From positions 1 to 40,564 of the IMG/VR virus record IMGVR_UViG_3300003323_000430: 40,564 nucleotides of DNA; one strand, 5' to 3'. How positions within the stretch are numbered: position 1 is the stretch's first letter; the number at the start of each line of letters is the position of its first letter. Under the pieces are notes generated by a model. That model had not been told where the DNA came from, ran no database searches, and saw only the letters and a program-made list of their open reading frames with translations. The stretch comes from a virus. Positions 3,737 to 15,672 of this stretch are shown here, one piece after another. The position numbers and the translations under genes are program-made.

Positions 3737-3922
3737 TTGCGGGAATAACGCACGAAGATATTGCTCCGCTTCAAGTTCGCCATCCCATTTCATATTAGAG
3801 ATATGCACGCTATTATCAACCAATATAAGCTCAAGTCTCCAACCATCTAAATATTGTTCAATTTTAATCGATCGCATACAATTTAAATTCACAAATCCAT
3901 CTGTCGCGTGAAATAATTTCAT
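3731..3922 (-). CDS. Small hypothetical protein (63 aa)
   Basis: ATG 3922 is preceded by GGGAGAAG, which favours it over the in-frame TTG at 3937. The product has the look of a small beta-alpha domain: MKLFHATDGFVNLNCMRSIK, then KIEQYLDGWRLELILVDNSV and a short helix at the C-terminus. It is the last gene of the recombination operon and overlaps the ERF gene's end by four bases. No family is recognised. Confidence 0.6.
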   Translation of the reverse strand: MKLFHATDGFVNLNCMRSIKIEQYLDGWRLELILVDNSVHISNMKWDGELEAEQYLRALFPQM

Positions 3923-4518
3923 TTCTTCTTCTCCCAATTATTGAATGCTGTCATGAATTGCGCCATCCTTTCACATGCCTTACGCTTCACATCCTCTACA
4001 TGTTTCCCACTCGCTTCGGCTGAGTACTCAAGAAAAGCAGCAAGTTTCTTCTTATCTGCAGGGGTTAAATGCTCTGGCAACATAAGATCGAAATCTAGGC
4101 ACTTTTCAGGCTCATAGCGCGCATTTTGATCTTCATCTGGATCATCCCCCGTCTCAAGGTTAAATGTCTTCAGCATGGCGTATTTAAACGCGTAGGACAC
4201 GGCTTTGCCTGGGCCTTTATCTGCTGCGTCAATTCCGTAGCCAGGGAATCTAACAGTGAAGTTATCGCTTGGACAATCGATATTCACGAATGACACAAGA
4301 ATATTTACCGATGTGCGGTTGCCTTCTTGTACTATAGCTTCTATTGAAGGAATTGCGTTTACTCCATGCTTCACTAGAAGAGGATGTAGCGCTGCGGTGA
4401 CTTGATCATGTGAGACGAAGCGGTATTGACCATTGACGGTTTTCTGTCCCTTTTGGATGTAGTCTATGTCTGCCATGATGGCATTGATTCGTTGGTGTAT
4501 GTTCTTAGCTTCTTGCAT
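3919..4518 (-). CDS. erf: ERF-family single-strand annealing protein
   Basis: 199 residues. The block PGYGIDAADKGPGKAVSYAF followed by KYAMLKTFNLETGDDPD is the hallmark of the ERF superfamily, whose best-known member is P22 Erf; the N-terminal region VSHDQVTAALHPLLVKHGV also fits. These proteins anneal complementary single strands for recombination and genome circularisation. The C-terminal 60 residues are charged and helical. The start has GGAG 7-8 bases upstream, and the gene overlaps the nuclease gene by 14 bases. Together they form an exonuclease/annealase pair like Red or RecET. Confidence 0.9.
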   Translation of the reverse strand: MQEAKNIHQRINAIMADIDYIQKGQKTVNGQYRFVSHDQVTAALHPLLVKHGVNAIPSIEAIVQEGNRTSVNILVSFVNIDCPSDNFTVRFPGYGIDAADKGPGKAVSYAFKYAMLKTFNLETGDDPDEDQNARYEPEKCLDFDLMLPEHLTPADKKKLAAFLEYSAEASGKHVEDVKRKACERMAQFMTAFNNWEKKK

Positions 4519-5053
4519 TCTTTTCTCCGTTGAAATAGTTCCAGCAGGTGAGAGCTGCTGTGAAGGTGTTGAATTCGTTGGTAAAGTCGTTGATATGATG
4601 GATATCGGGATAGGCTCCTTCTTTGTCTAGATACACAAGAAGCGCGCCTTTAACTTCGATGCCATGCTTGGAAAGAAGAGCATGATAAGCAGCCATCTGC
4701 ACGGGATATGTCTTCTGTGGTTTCGAAGATGTCTTTAGATCCACCAGGTATGATTCATCGTCATGAAGCTTCACAACGAAATCTAGCTGCCCTGTGTATT
4801 TCATCTCATCGTGTTGGTAGCGCTGCTCAATGATAGTAAACTCCTGAACCTCAGTTGCCCAGGCTTCAAATGATCTGATATATCCTTGGAGCTCTTCATC
4901 TATCATAGACTCAGGAAGCCATGCGCCTTTGGCAATCGCTGCGCATAGAGCATGGACTTTGGTTCCTTTAGCTGCTGCTTTATTTAGTATTAACTTTGGT
5001 ACGGAATGGTATTGAGCGAATGGATTGAGTATTTCAGTGACTCTTGGATACAT
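4505..5053 (-). CDS. PD-(D/E)XK nuclease, RecB/Cas4-like
   Basis: 182 residues. Motifs in order: AAAKGTKVHALCAAIA (the G-T-x-V-H block), EQRY, KYTGQLDFVVKL with the catalytic Asp, YLVDLKTSSKPQ with the D-x-K pair, and QMAAYHALL (the Q-x-x-x-Y motif). This is the RecB-type exonuclease fold. Placed directly upstream of an ERF annealase, it probably resects double-stranded ends to supply single strands. It is shorter than RecE or lambda Exo but similar to many phage Cas4-like nucleases. The start follows GGGGGT. Confidence 0.85.
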   Translation of the reverse strand: MYPRVTEILNPFAQYHSVPKLILNKAAAKGTKVHALCAAIAKGAWLPESMIDEELQGYIRSFEAWATEVQEFTIIEQRYQHDEMKYTGQLDFVVKLHDDESYLVDLKTSSKPQKTYPVQMAAYHALLSKHGIEVKGALLVYLDKEGAYPDIHHINDFTNEFNTFTAALTCWNYFNGEKNARS

Positions 5054-5182
5054 TTACCCCCAAGTGGAATAGGCAATAGCACCGAGCAATATCGCTGACA
5101 TTATTAAGATGCTAATTAGCCAGAATTTAAACACTACGAACATCGCTTCTCTTATTTCATCCCACGCAGCTTTTGTTGTCAT
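5054..5182 (-). CDS. Small single-span membrane protein (42 aa)
   Basis: The start at 5182 is chosen because GGAGGG lies five bases upstream; an earlier in-frame codon at 5251 lacks a site. The product has an amphipathic N-terminus (MTTKAAWDEIREAM) and a hydrophobic segment FWLISILIMSAILLGAIAY. It is the first gene of the recombination operon. A membrane role is visible; function is unknown. A holin-like or inhibitor role cannot be excluded. Confidence 0.6.
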   Translation of the reverse strand: MTTKAAWDEIREAMFVVFKFWLISILIMSAILLGAIAYSTWG

Positions 5183-5228
5183 ATTCCCTCCGTGTCTGAT
5201 AATTATTGCATAGACTTGCGAAAGCTTC

Positions 5229-5257
5229 TTGTCAATATTTAATCTTAACACTATATG
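5229..5257 (+). promoter_or_regulatory. Candidate rightward promoter, overlapping a leftward -35
   Basis: TTGTCA (5229-5234), a 17-base spacer, then TATATG (5252-5257), 18 bases before the ATG at 5275. On the opposite strand TTGACA occupies 5230-5235 with a TATGCA-type weak -10 17 bases further left. The two divergent early operons may therefore share overlapping -35 elements. Prediction from consensus only. Confidence 0.45.
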
Positions 5258-5274
5258 AAAGTAGAGGGTATTGC

Positions 5275-5505
5275 ATGGGAAGACCGCGATTATACAAAAA
5301 GGATGTGGATGTGAGCATGAAGCTTGAAGAGGGCTTGTATCGCAAGCTTCAAGACATTGCTGCTTTAGAAACGCTGCATTGGGGTAGAAGAGTCGCTGCG
5401 GTAGAACTCATGCGCAAGGCGATTGCTTTTGTGTATGAAGATAATGAATTGCTTCGGGAGTGTTTTAGACGGAGCAGAAGTCCTGTGCGGAACAGAAAAA
5501 GATAG
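5275..5505 (+). CDS. Small basic, possible RHH-type DNA-binding protein (76 aa)
   Basis: Start ATG 5275, with AGAGGGT upstream. The product begins MGRPRLYKKDVDVSMKLEEG and continues with two predicted helices (YRKLQDIAALETL and AAVELMRKAIAFVYEDN), then a basic tail rich in Arg. A short beta strand followed by two helices fits a ribbon-helix-helix regulator. Its position as first gene of the early rightward operon, facing a divergent operon, would suit an autoregulator. The fold is inferred and not certain. Confidence 0.5.
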   Translation: MGRPRLYKKDVDVSMKLEEGLYRKLQDIAALETLHWGRRVAAVELMRKAIAFVYEDNELLRECFRRSRSPVRNRKR

Positions 5506-5575
5506 AGGGAATTTCACCCTCCACCCTAAGAAGTTCCAATGAATAAGCAACTGCACTGTAACAGTTAATACATTT

Positions 5576-5884
5576 ATGACAAAAGAAAAAATTCAATTCA
5601 ATCGTGAGACTTTAGAGTTCGAAGGACTTACAGAGGAAATAAAGAAGCAGGTAATGCAGCTTTATCCTCACCTCGATTTGGAGAATGAGTTAACACGAAT
5701 GAAAGGATGGCTTCTTTCCAAGGGAAAAGCTCGCAAGGGCACCTATGCTTTTATACTCAATTGGCTTGGTAATGCGCAGCCAAAGGAGCAGAAAGCACCG
5801 AATGTATTAGATAGCAGCTACACCGCTTATTTAAAGGAGCTATGGAGAAACCGAGAGCACATCCTAGAAATCAACAGTCGCTAG
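5576..5884 (+). CDS. Replication-initiator-like protein (102 aa)
   Basis: The central block YPHLDLENELTRMKGWLLSK, then KARKGTYAFILNWLGNAQ, matches the C-terminal helix pattern of many phage replication initiation proteins: a W-L motif followed by a K/R-rich turn and a NWL helix. It lies just before the helicase gene and overlaps it by 43 bases, which supports a replication role, perhaps helicase recruitment. It is much shorter than full initiators and lacks a winged-helix N-terminus. Confidence 0.55.
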   Translation: MTKEKIQFNRETLEFEGLTEEIKKQVMQLYPHLDLENELTRMKGWLLSKGKARKGTYAFILNWLGNAQPKEQKAPNVLDSSYTAYLKELWRNREHILEINSR

Positions 5885-6699
5885 TCCCTGTGAATTGTTT
5901 GGTTCCTGTAGGGGAATTGCCGATTCACTATCGCAAGGAGATCAATCCAGGCTACACCTCTGGGTGGAAATGCATCGATGAGTATCTGAAGGGACTACGC
6001 ATGGGTGAGCTTACTATCATCACTGCAGATACTGGCGTCGGAAAAACTACTTTCTGCACTCAATTGATGGTGAATTGCGCTATGCAGCAGATCCCTGTAT
6101 GGATTAATTCCTGGGAGATGAAGCCTGAAATCATCATGCGTAAAGTTGCATCGATTGTATTGCGTAGACCTATGAAGCTGCATAACTTCTCGGAGCATGA
6201 GAATGAACAGTTCAATGAATGGTGCGCAAGATATCCTATCTATATCAATCCCAACACAATTGGCATTTCCTTAGATGAGCTAGCAGAACAATTGAAGATT
6301 GCGAAGGAAAAGGGAATCGCTATTGTCATGCTTGATCACCTCGATTACTTAGTCAATAGCAAGAGGGAAAAGATTCACGAAGCAATTGATGAAACAGTGA
6401 AGAAGCTTCATGAGCTAGCTTTTTCTCTATCGATGCACTTTCTTTTGATTTGCCATCCGAGACAAGTTAGCACAGCACAAGAGGAAGTAGGGATACATTC
6501 ACTGAAGGGCTCTTCATCGCTGAAGCAATACGCAGATAACGTGATCATCTTGCATAGATGTTCCCGCACGGAAAAGGGCGCAGATCCTTCGAAGGTGAAA
6601 GTAACGATAGCGAAGAACCGAATGTTTGGAATCGAAGGGAGTACTTATTTGTATTACCAACCTTTATGGGACGGATATTTAGATACGAGGAGCAAATGA
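5842..6699 (+). CDS. DnaB-type replicative helicase (RecA-like domain only)
   Basis: 285 residues. After the GWKCIDEYLKGLRMGELTII lead-in there is a Walker A, ADTGVGKTT (62-70), a Walker B, IVMLDHLDYL (161-170), the helicase motif H3 LLICHPRQ (201-208) and KGSSSLKQYADNVIIL. This is the C-terminal motor of DnaB/T7 gp4 helicases. The N-terminal DnaB domain and any primase domain are missing, so primase would come from elsewhere. An AAAGGAG site sits just before the ATG. A DnaC-like loader is encoded far away at 19128-19802. Confidence 0.88.
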   Translation: MEKPRAHPRNQQSLVPVNCLVPVGELPIHYRKEINPGYTSGWKCIDEYLKGLRMGELTIITADTGVGKTTFCTQLMVNCAMQQIPVWINSWEMKPEIIMRKVASIVLRRPMKLHNFSEHENEQFNEWCARYPIYINPNTIGISLDELAEQLKIAKEKGIAIVMLDHLDYLVNSKREKIHEAIDETVKKLHELAFSLSMHFLLICHPRQVSTAQEEVGIHSLKGSSSLKQYADNVIILHRCSRTEKGADPSKVKVTIAKNRMFGIEGSTYLYYQPLWDGYLDTRSK

Positions 6700-6944
6700 A
6701 TTGGAGAGAAGAAGTGAATGACTGGCACGCTAAGTGTCAAGCGATTACGGAAAAAGCAGCAGTGCCCGTGGGAATCATCGATGAGTTGACGAAGCTCTAT
6801 GATTTGATTGATGTAGTGTTAAAGATGTTACTAGCAAAGGATTGGACAGGAGAGAACACAACGAAGCAAGCAGCGAATTGTCTATATTTCTTTGCTTTGC
6901 CACAAATAAAGAAAATACAAATGGAGATAAAGAATGCGATATAG
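6696..6944 (+). CDS. Small helical hypothetical protein (82 aa)
   Basis: Start ATG 6696 after GAGGAG, overlapping the helicase stop as ATGA. The product begins MNWREEVNDWHAKCQAITEK and is mostly helical with a hydrophobic mid-segment (LIDVVLKMLLAKDW). It lies between the helicase and the SpoVG-like gene. No family recognised. A replication accessory role is only implied by position. Confidence 0.6.
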   Translation: MNWREEVNDWHAKCQAITEKAAVPVGIIDELTKLYDLIDVVLKMLLAKDWTGENTTKQAANCLYFFALPQIKKIQMEIKNAI

Positions 6945-7290
6945 AATTGCTAATAGCAAAACAGAAGTAGAAGTGACACAGTTTCGTCCAATGGATAAAG
7001 GAGCGCTCAAAGGCTTCTTTACTTTGATTGAGTACAATGAAGACTATCCGAAGGGAAGAAAGACGCTAGACTGTCGCTACTTCAATCAAGGGGAGAACCG
7101 TTGGATGTCGTTTCCTCACAAAGAGGTTACATACAAAGGAACAGAGAAGCCAGAGTTTATTCCATTGGTGTCGTATCCTGATAAGGAGTACTTCGAAAGG
7201 TTAAAAGTCGCAGCATTAGAAGCAATTGAAAAGGAGCACACAAATGGAAGTAAGGGCAATGTTCCGGACGACCCATCCTTTAACTGGTAA
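6934..7290 (+). CDS. SpoVG-like nucleic-acid-binding protein
   Basis: 118 residues. Pattern: short N-terminal strand EVEVTQFRPMDKGALKGFFT, then KTLDCRYFNQGENRWMSFPH and a conserved Lys-rich turn, then FIPLVSYPDKEYFERLKVAA. This matches the phage SpoVG-like family (FRPxxKGxLxGFF…WxxFP), known as site-specific DNA or RNA binding proteins. Start has GGAG seven bases upstream. It lies among replication genes. Family call moderately sure; target unknown. Confidence 0.55.
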   Translation: MRYRIANSKTEVEVTQFRPMDKGALKGFFTLIEYNEDYPKGRKTLDCRYFNQGENRWMSFPHKEVTYKGTEKPEFIPLVSYPDKEYFERLKVAALEAIEKEHTNGSKGNVPDDPSFNW

Positions 7291-7450
7291 AGTCGTCTTT
7301 GATTCGTGGCTGACTCTCTGCGAGTATGCGCTTGATGTGGCAGAGAAAGAAGCGAAAGAGCGATTAATAGATAAATTGATAGAGCTAACTGAACAAATAG
7401 CAGATGAAATAATCGAAAGCGTAGAAGAGTGTGAACCGGAAGCAATATAG
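7244..7450 (+). CDS. Small acidic hypothetical protein (68 aa)
   Basis: ATG 7244 follows AAAAGGAG, preferred over the in-frame TTG at 7226. The N-terminus MEVRAMFRTTHPLTGKVVF may form strands; the rest is a strongly charged helix (AEKEAKERLIDKLIELTEQ) ending EECEPEAI. It overlaps the SpoVG-like gene by 47 bases. No family is recognised. Confidence 0.55.
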   Translation: MEVRAMFRTTHPLTGKVVFDSWLTLCEYALDVAEKEAKERLIDKLIELTEQIADEIIESVEECEPEAI

Positions 7451-7979
7451 ACAGTTGATACTTGGAGGTAAGAAGCAATACCAAAAGGAAATGACGATTC
7501 CGGGTGAGCCTCTTATCTTCTCCATCAAATACGACATTGGGAAAAGGCACCATTCATTGCAGGTTATACGAAACATGCAATGGCGCTCTATGATGAAATC
7601 GATATTCAAGACGCACTACAGGATCACGACGCCGGTAGTGCTTTTGATTCGCTTCTATGTTTCTCCACGTACAGAGAAGATCAGCAAGAAGAAGCTAGCA
7701 AAGGAAGAGACGCCAGCAGTCGATCAGTTTGAGCTTTGCGACTATGGGTTGTCGTTTCTTGAAATGGTACGATCTGTGCTTTTCAATTGCTATCGGCAGA
7801 TTGTGAAGTTGGATATGGAGAAGTACTATAGTGACAAACCGAGAACAGTATTTAAATTCATGAGTTGGGATGAATATATTCAAGATATCAATTCCGTTAA
7901 CTCCGCAGGCGAAAGCCTCAGTGAGGTTGGGAAGGAAGGGCTACTACAATCCGAGTTGCAAGGGGATGTCAGCGTTTAG
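7431..7979 (+). CDS. RusA-fold protein with degenerate active site
   Basis: The core starts TIPGEPLIFS, a typical RusA N-terminal strand, then LLIRFYVSP, and ends RQIVKLDMEKYYSDKPRTVF, the RusA C-terminal pattern. Aligned with the adjacent canonical RusA, the catalytic D-x-D-N…K is replaced by E-L-C-D…L, and the D-D before the last strand (ILWDDDSRIV) by N-C (VLFNCYRQIV). It therefore looks like a RusA-fold pseudoenzyme, perhaps a DNA-binding partner. The start is uncertain: GTG 7431, or ATG 7491, which fits the RusA N-terminus better. It overlaps the next gene by 110 bases. Confidence 0.6.
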   Translation: MNRKQYRQLILGGKKQYQKEMTIPGEPLIFSIKYDIGKRHHSLQVIRNMQWRSMMKSIFKTHYRITTPVVLLIRFYVSPRTEKISKKKLAKEETPAVDQFELCDYGLSFLEMVRSVLFNCYRQIVKLDMEKYYSDKPRTVFKFMSWDEYIQDINSVNSAGESLSEVGKEGLLQSELQGDVSV

Positions 7980-8355
7980 CGCCTATGTAAAAGAAGCGTT
8001 GAAGGATCAGGAATTGCCTCTATTTAAAGGACCTTTGATGGTGATTCTTCATTTCCAAATGCCTTTACCTGCATTGTATAAATATGGTAAGAGGAAAAAG
8101 TTTCATCGTTTCCCGCATGTGAATCGACCTGATGGGGATAACATGGAGAAGTTCATAAATGATGCTTTGAACGGTATTCTTTGGGACGATGATTCACGCA
8201 TCGTATGGATGTTAAGAAGCAAAACAACAACAGCTTGCACGGTGGGATGTGTTGATATTTACATCAAAGAATTGGAAGCGGGCGTACCCGACTACGCTTC
8301 TATATTGGCTTTTATTCAGGATAATTTAACGATTGAGGATCATGACGCTGCCTAA
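7870..8355 (+). CDS. rusA: RusA-family Holliday junction resolvase
   Basis: 161 residues. NRPDGDNMEKFINDALNGIL followed by WDDDSRIV gives the canonical RusA acidic set (D-x-D-N-x-x-K and D-D). N-terminal IPLTPQAKASVR and GYYNPSCKGM fit the nucleic-acid-binding strands. RusA dimers cut four-way junctions at specific dinucleotides, resolving replication and recombination intermediates before packaging. Start ATG 7870 lies inside the preceding RusA-like gene. The C-terminal 25 residues (ASILAFIQDNLTIEDHDAA) extend beyond the usual fold. Confidence 0.88.
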   Translation: MNIFKISIPLTPQAKASVRLGRKGYYNPSCKGMSAFSAYVKEALKDQELPLFKGPLMVILHFQMPLPALYKYGKRKKFHRFPHVNRPDGDNMEKFINDALNGILWDDDSRIVWMLRSKTTTACTVGCVDIYIKELEAGVPDYASILAFIQDNLTIEDHDAA

Positions 8356-8524
8356 TTTAGATCAAACGCTTTTGTCTTATGTATACATATGTGAAACACT
8401 TATGGATTATGTGAACCTACAGAACTATTCTAGTTTCAGTGAAAAAAGAGAGCAGATCAAAGAAGTCCTTCAGCAAATCATTGAGCTGCGAGAGGATATG
8501 GAATGGGAGCTTCAGAACCAATGA
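8342..8524 (+). CDS. Small helical hypothetical protein (60 aa)
   Basis: ATG 8342 with GAGG four bases upstream and overlapping the RusA end. Product MTLPNLDQTLLSYVYICETL then a charged helix with KREQIKEVLQQIIELRED. It is probably an all-helical small protein. No family recognised. Confidence 0.5.
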   Translation: MTLPNLDQTLLSYVYICETLMDYVNLQNYSSFSEKREQIKEVLQQIIELREDMEWELQNQ

Positions 8525-8697
8525 TTATTCCGATCAGTGAAGAAGAAGTGTATGTTGTGCTAGGGATTGATGAGAATGAACATGATCAGGTGCTAGGCGT
8601 GTTTTATACATTTGAGAGAGCTAAGCGATTCTGTATCAAGTGTGAATGCAAAACCGCTTATTATGATCTATGGATTGAAAAGCATCTAGTAAACTAG
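8503..8697 (+). CDS. Small hypothetical protein (64 aa or 58 aa)
   Basis: Either ATG 8503 (AGAGG seven bases before) or ATG 8521, which forms an ATGA overlap with the upstream stop, could start it. The body SEEEVYVVLGIDENEHDQVL then GVFYTFERAKRFCIKC suggests a beta-beta-alpha domain with a Cys pair (CIKCEC). It ends the early rightward operon and overlaps the convergent ParB-like gene by 12 bases. Function unknown. Confidence 0.5.
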   Translation: MGASEPMIIPISEEEVYVVLGIDENEHDQVLGVFYTFERAKRFCIKCECKTAYYDLWIEKHLVN

Positions 8698-9423
8698 CTC
8701 AGAGTCCGAGAGAAGATTGATGCGTTGGGAATTTCTCCAATTGTAGATATCCATGAATACAGCTAAGTATTGCTTCATATTGACGCGTGGTCCAATCTTA
8801 TCAATCATCTTGCGTAAGTTATTCATCCATTTGTCTTTATCAAATGAAACATGGGATACCAGAGTAATGAGCGCACGCCAGAATTTAATCGATTGTTGAT
8901 AGCTATTTTTGCCATTCATGCGTATGATATAATCTAAAATCTCTTGGCATGTCTGTAAATATTCGTGGCAATTTTCTATATCAAAGATATATTCACCGCG
9001 TTTATAAGCAGATATTTGCGAGTGAGTTGAAACACCAGTTAAGTATAATGCTACACTTACAGGTAAGGTATTTTTATTTATAAATTCTTGTAATTTACAA
9101 TATTCAACATAACCATTCTTTACAAAGAAGTTTTGAAAATCGTTAAGATTCCATTGTTTATTTGTGTTTAATATAATAATATCGGAAAGGTCTAATTCTG
9201 GCTTTATCTCATAGAAAATAGGTACTCCTAACTTCTTTGCTGCGAGCAATCTATGTTGTCCGTCGAGCACTTCCATTTTAGAATTAACTGTGATAGGTCT
9301 TAGATGAAGCAAGTTCTTCATTTCTATTGATGCTTGAACTCTTCTGATATGATCTTCATTAAGTTTTTCGCGATTATCATTTCTAAAAACAAATATTTCA
9401 TAATTTGTTGTTGATTCTACCAT
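8686..9423 (-). CDS. ParB N-terminal-like (ParB/Srx-fold, DGQHR) protein
   Basis: 245 residues. KLNEDHIRRVQASIEMKNLL, PITVNSKMEVLDGQHRLLAA and KKLGVPIFYEIK reproduce the ParB/sulfiredoxin fold with the G-Q-H-R substitution in place of G-E-R-R. That fold binds nucleotides (CTP in ParB). The remaining 150 residues are helical and rich in Asn/Tyr without a visible HTH. In phages such proteins serve partition, anti-restriction or nuclease roles. It follows an HTH gene and a Xer-type recombinase in the same operon, with 26-base overlaps. No ParA was seen. Confidence 0.7.
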   Translation of the reverse strand: MVESTTNYEIFVFRNDNREKLNEDHIRRVQASIEMKNLLHLRPITVNSKMEVLDGQHRLLAAKKLGVPIFYEIKPELDLSDIIILNTNKQWNLNDFQNFFVKNGYVEYCKLQEFINKNTLPVSVALYLTGVSTHSQISAYKRGEYIFDIENCHEYLQTCQEILDYIIRMNGKNSYQQSIKFWRALITLVSHVSFDKDKWMNNLRKMIDKIGPRVNMKQYLAVFMDIYNWRNSQRINLLSDSELVY

Positions 9424-9745
9424 TTATTTCCTCAATTTGTTGTGTTAAAATCTCTATAATCATTTCTAAGCTTACAATACGAGATTCCAGCGCTTTATAT
9501 GGATTCCATTCCTGGTTTATATTATGTGCGCTGCGTTTTTCATTGGCCAATATCATATTATACTGAGCTTGTACTTGTGCTTTTTCAGCATTATATTCCA
9601 GTCTTCCTCCGTTCTTGCACACTTCAACGACGATGGTATTTGTACCGCGATTCAATTGTTTTGCGATTTCACAGCATGAAGCATTTAATTTCAATAGCTT
9701 CTGGATTATTACTCGTTCTTCATATGTTAAGTGCGTCTTGTACAT
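9398..9745 (-). CDS. HTH_38/IS30-like DNA-binding protein with coiled coil
   Basis: 115 residues. The N-terminus THLTYEERVIIQKLLKLNAS, then CCEIAKQLNRGTNTIVVEV, matches the helix-turn-helix at the start of IS30-family transposases (R-I-x-x-x-L…I-A-x-x-L-x-R). No catalytic DDE domain follows. Instead the C-terminus is a predicted coiled coil (LESRIVSLEMIIEILTQQIE). It could be a regulator or a centromere-binding adaptor for the ParB-like protein encoded next. It overlaps both neighbours by 26 bases. Confidence 0.65.
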   Translation of the reverse strand: MYKTHLTYEERVIIQKLLKLNASCCEIAKQLNRGTNTIVVEVCKNGGRLEYNAEKAQVQAQYNMILANEKRSAHNINQEWNPYKALESRIVSLEMIIEILTQQIEEINGRINNKL

Positions 9746-10616
9746 TACCAGCTCTAGGATGAAATTGTTTAAACATCAATTGAACTTTGTGCTTCGAAAG
9801 ATGAGTATACCTTTGTGTGCTGGTGATCGATGTGTGGCCAAGTACCTCTTGAATCATGCGAAGGTCTGCGCCGTGATCTAGCAAGTGAGTTGCGCAAGTA
9901 TGGCGTAGCGTATGAGGTGTCACACCTTGAAGCCCTGCTTTTGCTGCATACTCCGTAACGATTGTGCAGAGAAGCCTTCTTTGAATGGGCTTACCTAGCA
10001 ACGTACAGAACAGTGGACCTTCTTCCAAACCTCTGCGTTCTGTAATGTAGCGATTGATCCAGTGTTGCGCTTCATCAGTCAAGGGAACGGAGCGGGCTTT
10101 GTTGCCCTTTCCGCACTTCACGTGTATGATACCTTCGGCAAAGTCTTCTAGCTGTAAATCGCATAGCTCTGAGGCACGCAATCCAGAGGAGTATAGCAGC
10201 TCAAGGATTGCTCTATCGCGAAGCCCTGCTTCTGTAGCTACATTTGGTTTCTCAAGAAGCAAAGCAATTTCCTCCATCGAAGGAATGCGAGGAGCAACGA
10301 TCTTGGCTCTTGGCTTCGGTACTTCGCTAAGATCGATAGCAAGCAGCTTTCTTTGACGCAGGAAGCGACAAAAGGCGTAGATTGAGTGGTAGTAGCGCTT
10401 AATGGAAGAATCGCTCTTACCGCCTTTCTTGCATCTTCCAAGGTAAATGGTGATATGATCGGTTTTTATAGAAGCGATGCGTTTGATCTTTATATCCGTG
10501 AGATATTCCATGAACTTCGCTACGTCATATTGATACGCAGCGACGGTTTGAGGAGAAGCTTTGATGTAAAGATGCGAAACGAAAGCTTCGAGGGTTTCAT
10601 TCATTTGTGGATTCAT
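9720..10616 (-). CDS. Xer-type tyrosine recombinase
   Basis: 298 residues, the length of XerC/XerD. Catalytic residues are all visible: Arg147 (SGLRASEL), Lys170 (CGKGNKARS), His235/Arg238 (TPHTLRHTCATHLL), His261 (LGHTSI) and Tyr270 (STQRYTH). The N-terminal SAM-like domain is complete. It could integrate the phage at a host dif-type site, resolve genome multimers, or act in circularisation. Its layout resembles XerD more than lambda Int, since the arm-binding domain is missing. It is transcribed between the RHH and HTH/ParB-like genes. Confidence 0.92.
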   Translation of the reverse strand: MNPQMNETLEAFVSHLYIKASPQTVAAYQYDVAKFMEYLTDIKIKRIASIKTDHITIYLGRCKKGGKSDSSIKRYYHSIYAFCRFLRQRKLLAIDLSEVPKPRAKIVAPRIPSMEEIALLLEKPNVATEAGLRDRAILELLYSSGLRASELCDLQLEDFAEGIIHVKCGKGNKARSVPLTDEAQHWINRYITERRGLEEGPLFCTLLGKPIQRRLLCTIVTEYAAKAGLQGVTPHTLRHTCATHLLDHGADLRMIQEVLGHTSITSTQRYTHLSKHKVQLMFKQFHPRAGNVQDALNI

Positions 10617-14745: not shown

Positions 14746-14845
14746 TCGCTGGGAAGGGATTTTGATGACAATATTTATGTTGTTGGCCCTGTTTTTAGGC
14801 TACTGTTTTGCTATAATTTGGTTATTTCCGCCGGAGGCGACATGA
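14732..14845 (+). CDS. Very small membrane protein (37 aa)
   Basis: AGGAG six bases before ATG 14732. MLQINRWEGILMTIFMLLAL then FLGYCFAIIWLFPPEAT is one long hydrophobic span. The stop overlaps the SPFH gene start as ATGA, so the two are coupled and may form a membrane complex. A small holin-like role is possible but not shown. Confidence 0.65.
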   Translation: MLQINRWEGILMTIFMLLALFLGYCFAIIWLFPPEAT

Positions 14846-15672
14846 AACAAGAACACTTGCTCCTATTAACCACACTGACAATCCTCTTCATTGCATGGTC
14901 CCTCTGCTTCAAGATGATCTCGCCAGGCTATGTTGGAGTAGTAGTTGATTTGCTTGGCGACAACAAAGGAGTAGAAGCGAAAGAGTTACACGTAGGGATG
15001 CATTGGATTGCTCCGTGGAAAAGCGTGTATCAGTTTCCTATCTTTGAACAAAATGACACCTGGGAGGGTTCACATGGATTCAACTTTCAAACCTGCGAAG
15101 GCATGGCCGTTCATGCGGATATCGGGATCACTTATCACCTTAAGCCTGAGTGCATACCTACTATTTTCCAAAGGTATCGAAGGGGAATGGATGAAATCAC
15201 TAATGTTTTTATTAGGAATTACATACGGGATGCTATTAACAAGTCTGCTTCGAGAACTAGAATAGAAGACTTGTATTCCGGCAAAGAGGCTTTCTTCGAT
15301 GATTTGGAATCTCACGTGAGGAGCGATCTTTCTCCGATAGGGATTGAGCTTAGCAGGATTTACTTGATAGGCCGTTTTCATTTCCCGGATAATGTCATAG
15401 CTGCATTGAATGCGAAGATAGAAGCGATGCAAAGAGCGCAGCAGAGGGAGAATGAGCTACGAGAAGCAGAAGCTGAGGCGAAGAAGCAAGTAGCAAAGGC
15501 AGAGGGCGCAGCGAAGTGTGCTTTGCTTCAGGCAGAGGCAGAAGCGAAGGCTAATTCGGTGCTGGCTAATTCTGTCACGGAGCAGCTCATACAATGGCAG
15601 GCAGTGCAGAAGTGGGACGGGAAGCTTCCGAGTGTAACGAGTGGTGCAACCCCTTTTATTCAGGTGAAATGA
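14842..15672 (+). CDS. SPFH/prohibitin (band 7) family membrane protein
   Basis: 276 residues with ATG 14842 after CCGGAGGCGAC. A single N-terminal membrane span (about residues 5-25) is followed by an SPFH domain: MISPGYVGVVVDLLG, HVGMHWIAPWKSVYQFP, MAVHADIGITYHLKP, VFIRNYIRDAI. Then a long Ala/Glu coiled coil (ENELREAEAEAKKQVAKAEG) ends in a short tail. Prohibitin-like proteins form ring assemblies on membranes and modulate proteases such as FtsH. Phage copies are known but their role is unsettled. It is coupled to a 37-residue membrane protein upstream. Confidence 0.9.
   Translation: MKQEHLLLLTTLTILFIAWSLCFKMISPGYVGVVVDLLGDNKGVEAKELHVGMHWIAPWKSVYQFPIFEQNDTWEGSHGFNFQTCEGMAVHADIGITYHLKPECIPTIFQRYRRGMDEITNVFIRNYIRDAINKSASRTRIEDLYSGKEAFFDDLESHVRSDLSPIGIELSRIYLIGRFHFPDNVIAALNAKIEAMQRAQQRENELREAEAEAKKQVAKAEGAAKCALLQAEAEAKANSVLANSVTEQLIQWQAVQKWDGKLPSVTSGATPFIQVK

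Follow-up and report, generated by a model that had tools for sequence, protein, structure and literature searches.

A conserved RusA-fold protein without the RusA catalytic residues, encoded directly before a RusA gene in a tailed phage and its relatives

In the classical view, a Holliday junction resolvase is a homodimer and introduces paired symmetric cuts (PMC3864405). In the RusA family, the E. coli enzyme consists of two identical 14-kDa subunits, and the RusA-type protein G44P of phage SPP1, also a dimer, cuts Holliday junctions as well as replicated D-loops (PMC3485210). Another arrangement is found in MUS81, whose partners EME1 and EME2 have catalytically inactive ERCC4 domains (PMC3973302). 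The open-licence literature was also searched for papers on paired or inactive RusA proteins, and none was found.

The locus described here lies in a virus record from IMG/VR, 40,564 bases long (hereafter the window, i.e. the whole stretch analysed), where two consecutive genes both code for RusA-like proteins. As with SPP1 G44P, these are phage RusA-type products; however, G44P is a single catalytic polypeptide with an N-terminal extension, made from one gene, whereas the present pair combines a live and a dead member. In this respect, the pair is analogous in its workings to the XPF-type heterodimers MUS81-EME1 and MUS81-EME2, which likewise join a catalytic and an inactive homologous subunit, although these are eukaryotic and of an unrelated fold, and the phage proteins are only presumed to form a heterodimer. 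Compared with the RusA family (PF05866, PHROG_140; structures 1q8r, 2h8c and 2h8e), the upstream protein has the same fold, element order and small size, shares the C-terminal hairpin of the single-gene phage members and is likewise encoded in a phage replication/recombination cluster. It differs from the family by the lack of D70, D72, K76, D90 and D91, by a score below the Pfam cut-off, by a helix at its N-terminus and an overprinted tail at its C-terminus, and by its constant position beside a second RusA. The features of the pair are as follows:

7431..7979, + strand: upstream gene, RusA-fold pseudo-resolvase without catalytic residues (182 aa, GTG start)
7870..8355, + strand: downstream gene, RusA with the full catalytic set (161 aa, ATG start)
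7870..7979, + strand: overlap of the two genes, where the C-terminal tail of the upstream one is overprinted on the start of the downstream one (110 nt, different frames)
7485..7868, + strand: RusA-like domain of the upstream protein, residues 19-146 (AlphaFold model; VIA-align to E. coli RusA, residues 16-149)
7731..7763, + strand: degenerate catalytic helix of the upstream protein, E101-E111, E-L-C-D-Y-G-L-S-F-L-E replacing D-x-D-N-x-x-K-x-x-x-D (alignments)
7788..7793, + strand: upstream C120-Y121, replacing D90-D91 (alignments)
7821..7844, + strand: upstream K-x-Y-S-x-x-P-R hairpin, residues 131-138, invariant upstream and missing downstream
8131..8163, + strand: downstream catalytic helix, D88-G-D90-N91...K94...D98 (alignment)
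8188..8193, + strand: downstream D107-D108, equivalent to D90-D91 of E. coli RusA (alignment)

Fold and catalytic residues of the two proteins

The preliminary description had read the upstream product as a degenerate RusA from a few strands, and these (TIPGEPLIFS, RFYVSP and RQIVKLDMEKYYS) are indeed present in the translation of ORF 7431-7979; profile matches and modelled fold both turned out to be those of RusA. Taken alone, the upstream protein of the window reaches 17 bits against Pfam RusA, below the cut-off of 22.8, and an E-value of 6.6e-5 against PHROG_140. At the family level, 20 of the 21 members match PHROG_140 (best 3e-9) and nine of the 21 match Pfam RusA (PF05866) at E <= 0.1. 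With a profile made of catalytic RusAs, upstream members score up to 19 bits vs. a maximum of 6.7 for about 1000 shuffled sequences, and in the reverse search the upstream profile matches the catalytic single-gene RusA of contig L103 (E 4e-6). Concerning structure, the AlphaFold2 model, built from 21 aligned relatives, is of moderate confidence, with a mean pLDDT of 69.3 and a pTM of 0.62, and with values of 80-90 in the core strands and helix. Its best Foldseek matches in the PDB are E. coli RusA (2h8c/2h8e/1q8r, E 1.3e-4 to 6e-4), which also occupies the three best VIA-align rows (Z 8.2-8.4, the best with Z 8.4, rmsd 2.9 and 106 residues), followed by an unrelated row at 6.7; the named best matches among the BFVD predicted viral proteins are RusA enzymes as well. 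In the models, the element order E-H-E-H-H-E-E is common to the RusA-like domain of the upstream protein and to the downstream protein. Neither the upstream protein nor its profile found a relevant match among PDB sequences, and hhalign did not align the RusA domains of the upstream and downstream families, the input alignments being of low diversity and carrying long tails. Though none of the weak matches would suffice singly, the RusA relationship can be regarded as secure from the combined sequence and model evidence. The upstream protein is a RusA-fold relative: as it lacks the catalytic residues and scores below the Pfam cut-off, it should not be classed among the RusA resolvases.

As for the active site, two independent alignments agree, without gaps, on the register (E. 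coli numbering being taken from the PDB sequence). They place E101-L-C103-D104...L107...E111 of the upstream protein on D70-x-D72-N73...K76...D80 of RusA, as had been claimed; the N-C pair claimed to replace D90-D91 has to be corrected, because C120-Y121 and not N119-C120 stands at these positions. Residues were tallied over 27 distinct aligned upstream/downstream pairs. All 27 upstream proteins have Glu at the D70 position and Leu at the K76 position, while the position of D72 is occupied by Cys (22), Ala (3), Leu (1) or Thr (1), that of N73 by Asp (23) or Glu (4), that of D80 by Glu (26) or Gln (1), that of D90 by Ser (19), Cys (4), Thr (3) or Ala (1), and that of D91 by Tyr (25) or His (2). 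The set formed by D70, D72, D90/D91 and K76 is thus present in none of the 27. A degenerate pattern found in 27 of 27 distinct homologues is not due to chance, and replacement residues that are almost invariant do not correspond to decay. Judged by these residues, the loss of the active site argues against Holliday junction resolution by the upstream protein.

The downstream protein, by contrast, keeps the acidic set, as initially described, with D88-G-D90-N91...K94...D98 and D107-D108 corresponding to D70, D72, N73, K76, D80, D90 and D91 of E. coli RusA. In the window, it matches Pfam RusA above the gathering score (1.8e-16, 61.3 bits) and PHROG_140 with an E-value of 2.3e-23, and its model (pLDDT 88.7) aligns to 2h8e with a VIA-align Z of 11.7. 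The catalytic set is kept in 24 of the 27 downstream proteins, the exceptions being those of L018 and L021, which are degenerate, and that of L052, which is altered. The latter and its near-copy L053 read E-x-E-D...K...R-D, a site that could still work. The two degenerate proteins (L018:3571-4032 and L021:10087-10569) have lost the set, reading H/E-x-Q-Y...D...P-E, and by comparison with the E. coli enzyme they should be inactive. Between L018 and L021, dN is 0.40 for the downstream protein (52% identical) vs. 0.14 for the upstream protein (79% identical). As the upstream protein is conserved while the degenerate downstream one evolves faster, the function of the former is, in this lineage, independent of a catalytic neighbour; the doubly degenerate pairs of L018 and L021 also imply that describing the pair as a RusA nuclease with one dead half does not fully account for its role. 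Models of RuvC, endonuclease VII, T7 endonuclease I and RecU found no match in nine records, including L021, which might still use another kind of resolvase or a host enzyme.

A second motif is distributed in the opposite way. The K-x-Y-S-x-x-P-R hairpin is present in 27 of 27 upstream proteins and in none of the 27 downstream ones, whereas single-gene phage RusAs combine the catalytic set (15 of 15, one with D72E) with a similar hairpin (13 of 15 under a relaxed pattern). Such complementary losses look like a division of labour between the two proteins. However, the downstream protein need not be incomplete, since the hairpin of E. coli RusA is of another kind, without K-x-Y-S-x-x-P-R in the sequence, and this enzyme is active as a homodimer.

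Distribution, selection and genomic surroundings

Single-sequence searches with the window proteins as queries recovered no relatives from IMG/VR; these came from the neighbouring DnaB-like helicase and then from family alignments. The helicase scan yielded 27 related contigs, and nearly all those spanning the site encode the upstream protein immediately followed by the downstream RusA. Further pairs were obtained from a profile scan, from record G012 (L029) and from a scan with the downstream family. As a whole, about 35 IMG/VR contigs of uncultured phages carry the two genes in this order, representing 29 distinct pairs, with order and direct adjacency kept in all close relatives spanning the site; wherever a record spans it, the upstream protein is accompanied by the downstream gene. 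Among 27 distant RusA loci of IMG/VR, not one shows an upstream-type neighbour, and about 14 named phages that were examined show no second annotated RusA adjoining the first. Searches of GTDB genomes and plasmids yielded no relative of the upstream protein, and phages gave only weak RusA matches to it.

The distantly related L027, whose helicase is 37% identical, has only one RusA gene and lacks the upstream gene. In the tree, the upstream and downstream families each form one clade; the downstream clade adjoins the single RusA of this related phage, and the upstream clade stands on a separate branch of 3.2 changes per site. A joint upstream and downstream clade was not rejected by the AU test (p 0.36), with which duplication and separate acquisition are both compatible as the origin of the pair. 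The RusA gene of L027 (IMGVR_UViG_3300048897_000013, L027:10663-11262) contains two in-frame TGA codons within a full profile match of 80 bits. With code 4, the total length of ORFs of at least 100 aa roughly doubles, increasing from 4738 to 9904 and from 6551 to 12636 residues in two 20-kb pieces of L027, and from 7454 to 10995 residues in the window. In the L027 phage, TGA probably codes for an amino acid.

Purifying selection acts on the upstream gene, whose dN/dS is about 0.1: in its non-overlapping part, the ratio is 0.09-0.15 in most pairs with usable dS, and 0.25 for the L010/L013 pair, which is near saturation. The overlap ranges from 50 to 308 nt across 27 pairs, always in the same relative frame, and in all 27 the downstream start lies 25 or 31 nt past the PR of the upstream hairpin. 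When compared with synonymous codon shuffles, the upstream frame has 99 stops vs. 165 expected within nucleotides 1-300 of the downstream gene, and 20 vs. 54 within nucleotides 50-150, counts in which the number of genes overstates independence, as they share ancestry, although most pairs are synonymously saturated. No stop depletion was found in the third frame, the helicase genes, the upstream core or the single RusA genes. Because the upstream frame is more open than in the shuffles, it is probable that the overprinted tail is translated and retained, or else that early termination in the start region of the downstream gene is avoided. The conserved gene boundary, the frame relation and the open overlap frame thus point to co-expression.

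The window belongs to a tailed phage, as indicated by its terminase, portal and major head proteins. The following genes accompany the pair:

5842..6699, + strand: DnaB-like helicase of the same cluster, used as probe for relatives (Pfam/PHROG searches)
3919..4518, - strand: ERF-type single-strand annealing protein (Pfam ERF, 4.4e-18)
4505..5053, - strand: PD-(D/E)XK exonuclease (profile matches)

ERF was present in all 12 pair-bearing records tested and was not found in L027. Just past the pair, on the opposite strand, are a ParB-like protein (8686-9423, PHROG_12305, 7.5e-31) and a XerC/D-type tyrosine recombinase (9720-10616); these two genes may reflect a plasmid-like or integrating lifestyle. 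Finally, an ORF with a TTG start (14818-15672, + strand), located between the early genes and the terminase, matches PHROG_200 (lipoprotein) at 1.2e-69.

Possible roles of the upstream protein

The reading that we favour, with roughly balanced confidence, is that the upstream protein is a conserved non-catalytic subunit made together with the downstream RusA, most likely within a heteromer. The preliminary description had likewise proposed a heterodimer, or a change of junction specificity that a dead partner could bring about. The fold, the catalytic loss, the conservation, the clade-wide pairing, the complementary motifs and the selection on both the protein and the overlap frame are all read from sequences and models, and a live and a dead homologue are conserved together in 24 of the 27 distinct pairs. 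In its simplest form, the two proteins would associate physically into a dimer of a live and a dead half, sharing the work between them: the downstream RusA would bring the sole metal active site, while the upstream protein would provide DNA contacts, including those of the K-x-Y-S-x-x-P-R hairpin, and set the branch geometry. The outcome would be a one-strand or asymmetric cut, as opposed to the symmetric double cut of homodimeric RusA, and the substrate would be branched DNA arising from the ERF/exonuclease recombination of the phage. A bolder version, put forward tentatively, is that in this phage family an obligate live/dead RusA heteromer has replaced the homodimer, catalysis and DNA recognition being split between the subunits, and that in a sub-lineage, where neither half is catalytic any longer, the complex has become a pure junction binder. 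In view of L018 and L021, the pair may have junction binding as a task besides cutting, and such binding may be the ancestral or shared task.

It is possible, though rather unlikely, that the upstream protein acts alone or as a homodimer, as a non-cutting binder of branched DNA that shields or marks junctions or blocks host enzymes, and is merely co-transcribed with RusA. Its conservation in L018 and L021, whose downstream proteins lack the catalytic residues, its grouping in one clade on a long branch away from its neighbour and the retention of its fold and hairpin agree with such an autonomous role; against it stand the constant presence of the downstream gene in records spanning the site, the strictly kept gene boundary, frame relation and overlap, and the complementarity of the motif losses. 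An improbable alternative is that of a brake, where the upstream protein would form inactive heterodimers with RusA, or compete with it for junctions, and so limit the cutting of phage or host DNA. A phage RusA-type nuclease can be toxic when overexpressed, as reported for SPP1 gene 44 in B. subtilis (PMC3485210), and a product encoded first in an overlapping pair would be made at least as early as the enzyme. However, in L018 and L021 the upstream protein is still constrained with no catalytic RusA to restrain, and the single RusA genes of other phages manage without a brake.

That the upstream protein is itself a nuclease was also considered, with a rebuilt metal site in which E101, D/E104 and E111 would share one face of the catalytic helix; we deem it very unlikely. 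E101 is invariant, position 104 always acidic and E111 present in 26 of 27, and two of these stand for D70 and D80, which have been replaced by Glu and not by a neutral residue; but no acid is found at the positions of D72, D90 and D91, and Leu takes the place of K76 in 27 of 27, a residue designated as catalytic in the title of Bolt et al. 2000, as cited in PMC3485210. Moreover, the RusA variant crystallised with DNA in the PDB is D70N. Hardly any credence can be given to a decaying duplicate or pseudogene, or to one gene split by a sequencing error, even if the loss of catalytic residues is the expected first step of decay and SPP1 genes 44/45 offer a precedent for such an error (PMC3485210): both RusA domains are complete and have separate starts, and the replacement residues are invariant. 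Pseudogene and sequencing error are ruled out by the 29 distinct intact pairs and the dN/dS of about 0.1.

If the favoured reading of a heteromer holds true, the conserved dead RusA partner would represent an arrangement like that of MUS81-EME1, based on the smallest resolvase fold known. The live/dead and dead/dead pairs naturally present in sister phages would then provide a test of how a symmetric double-cutter becomes an asymmetric or binding-only processor.
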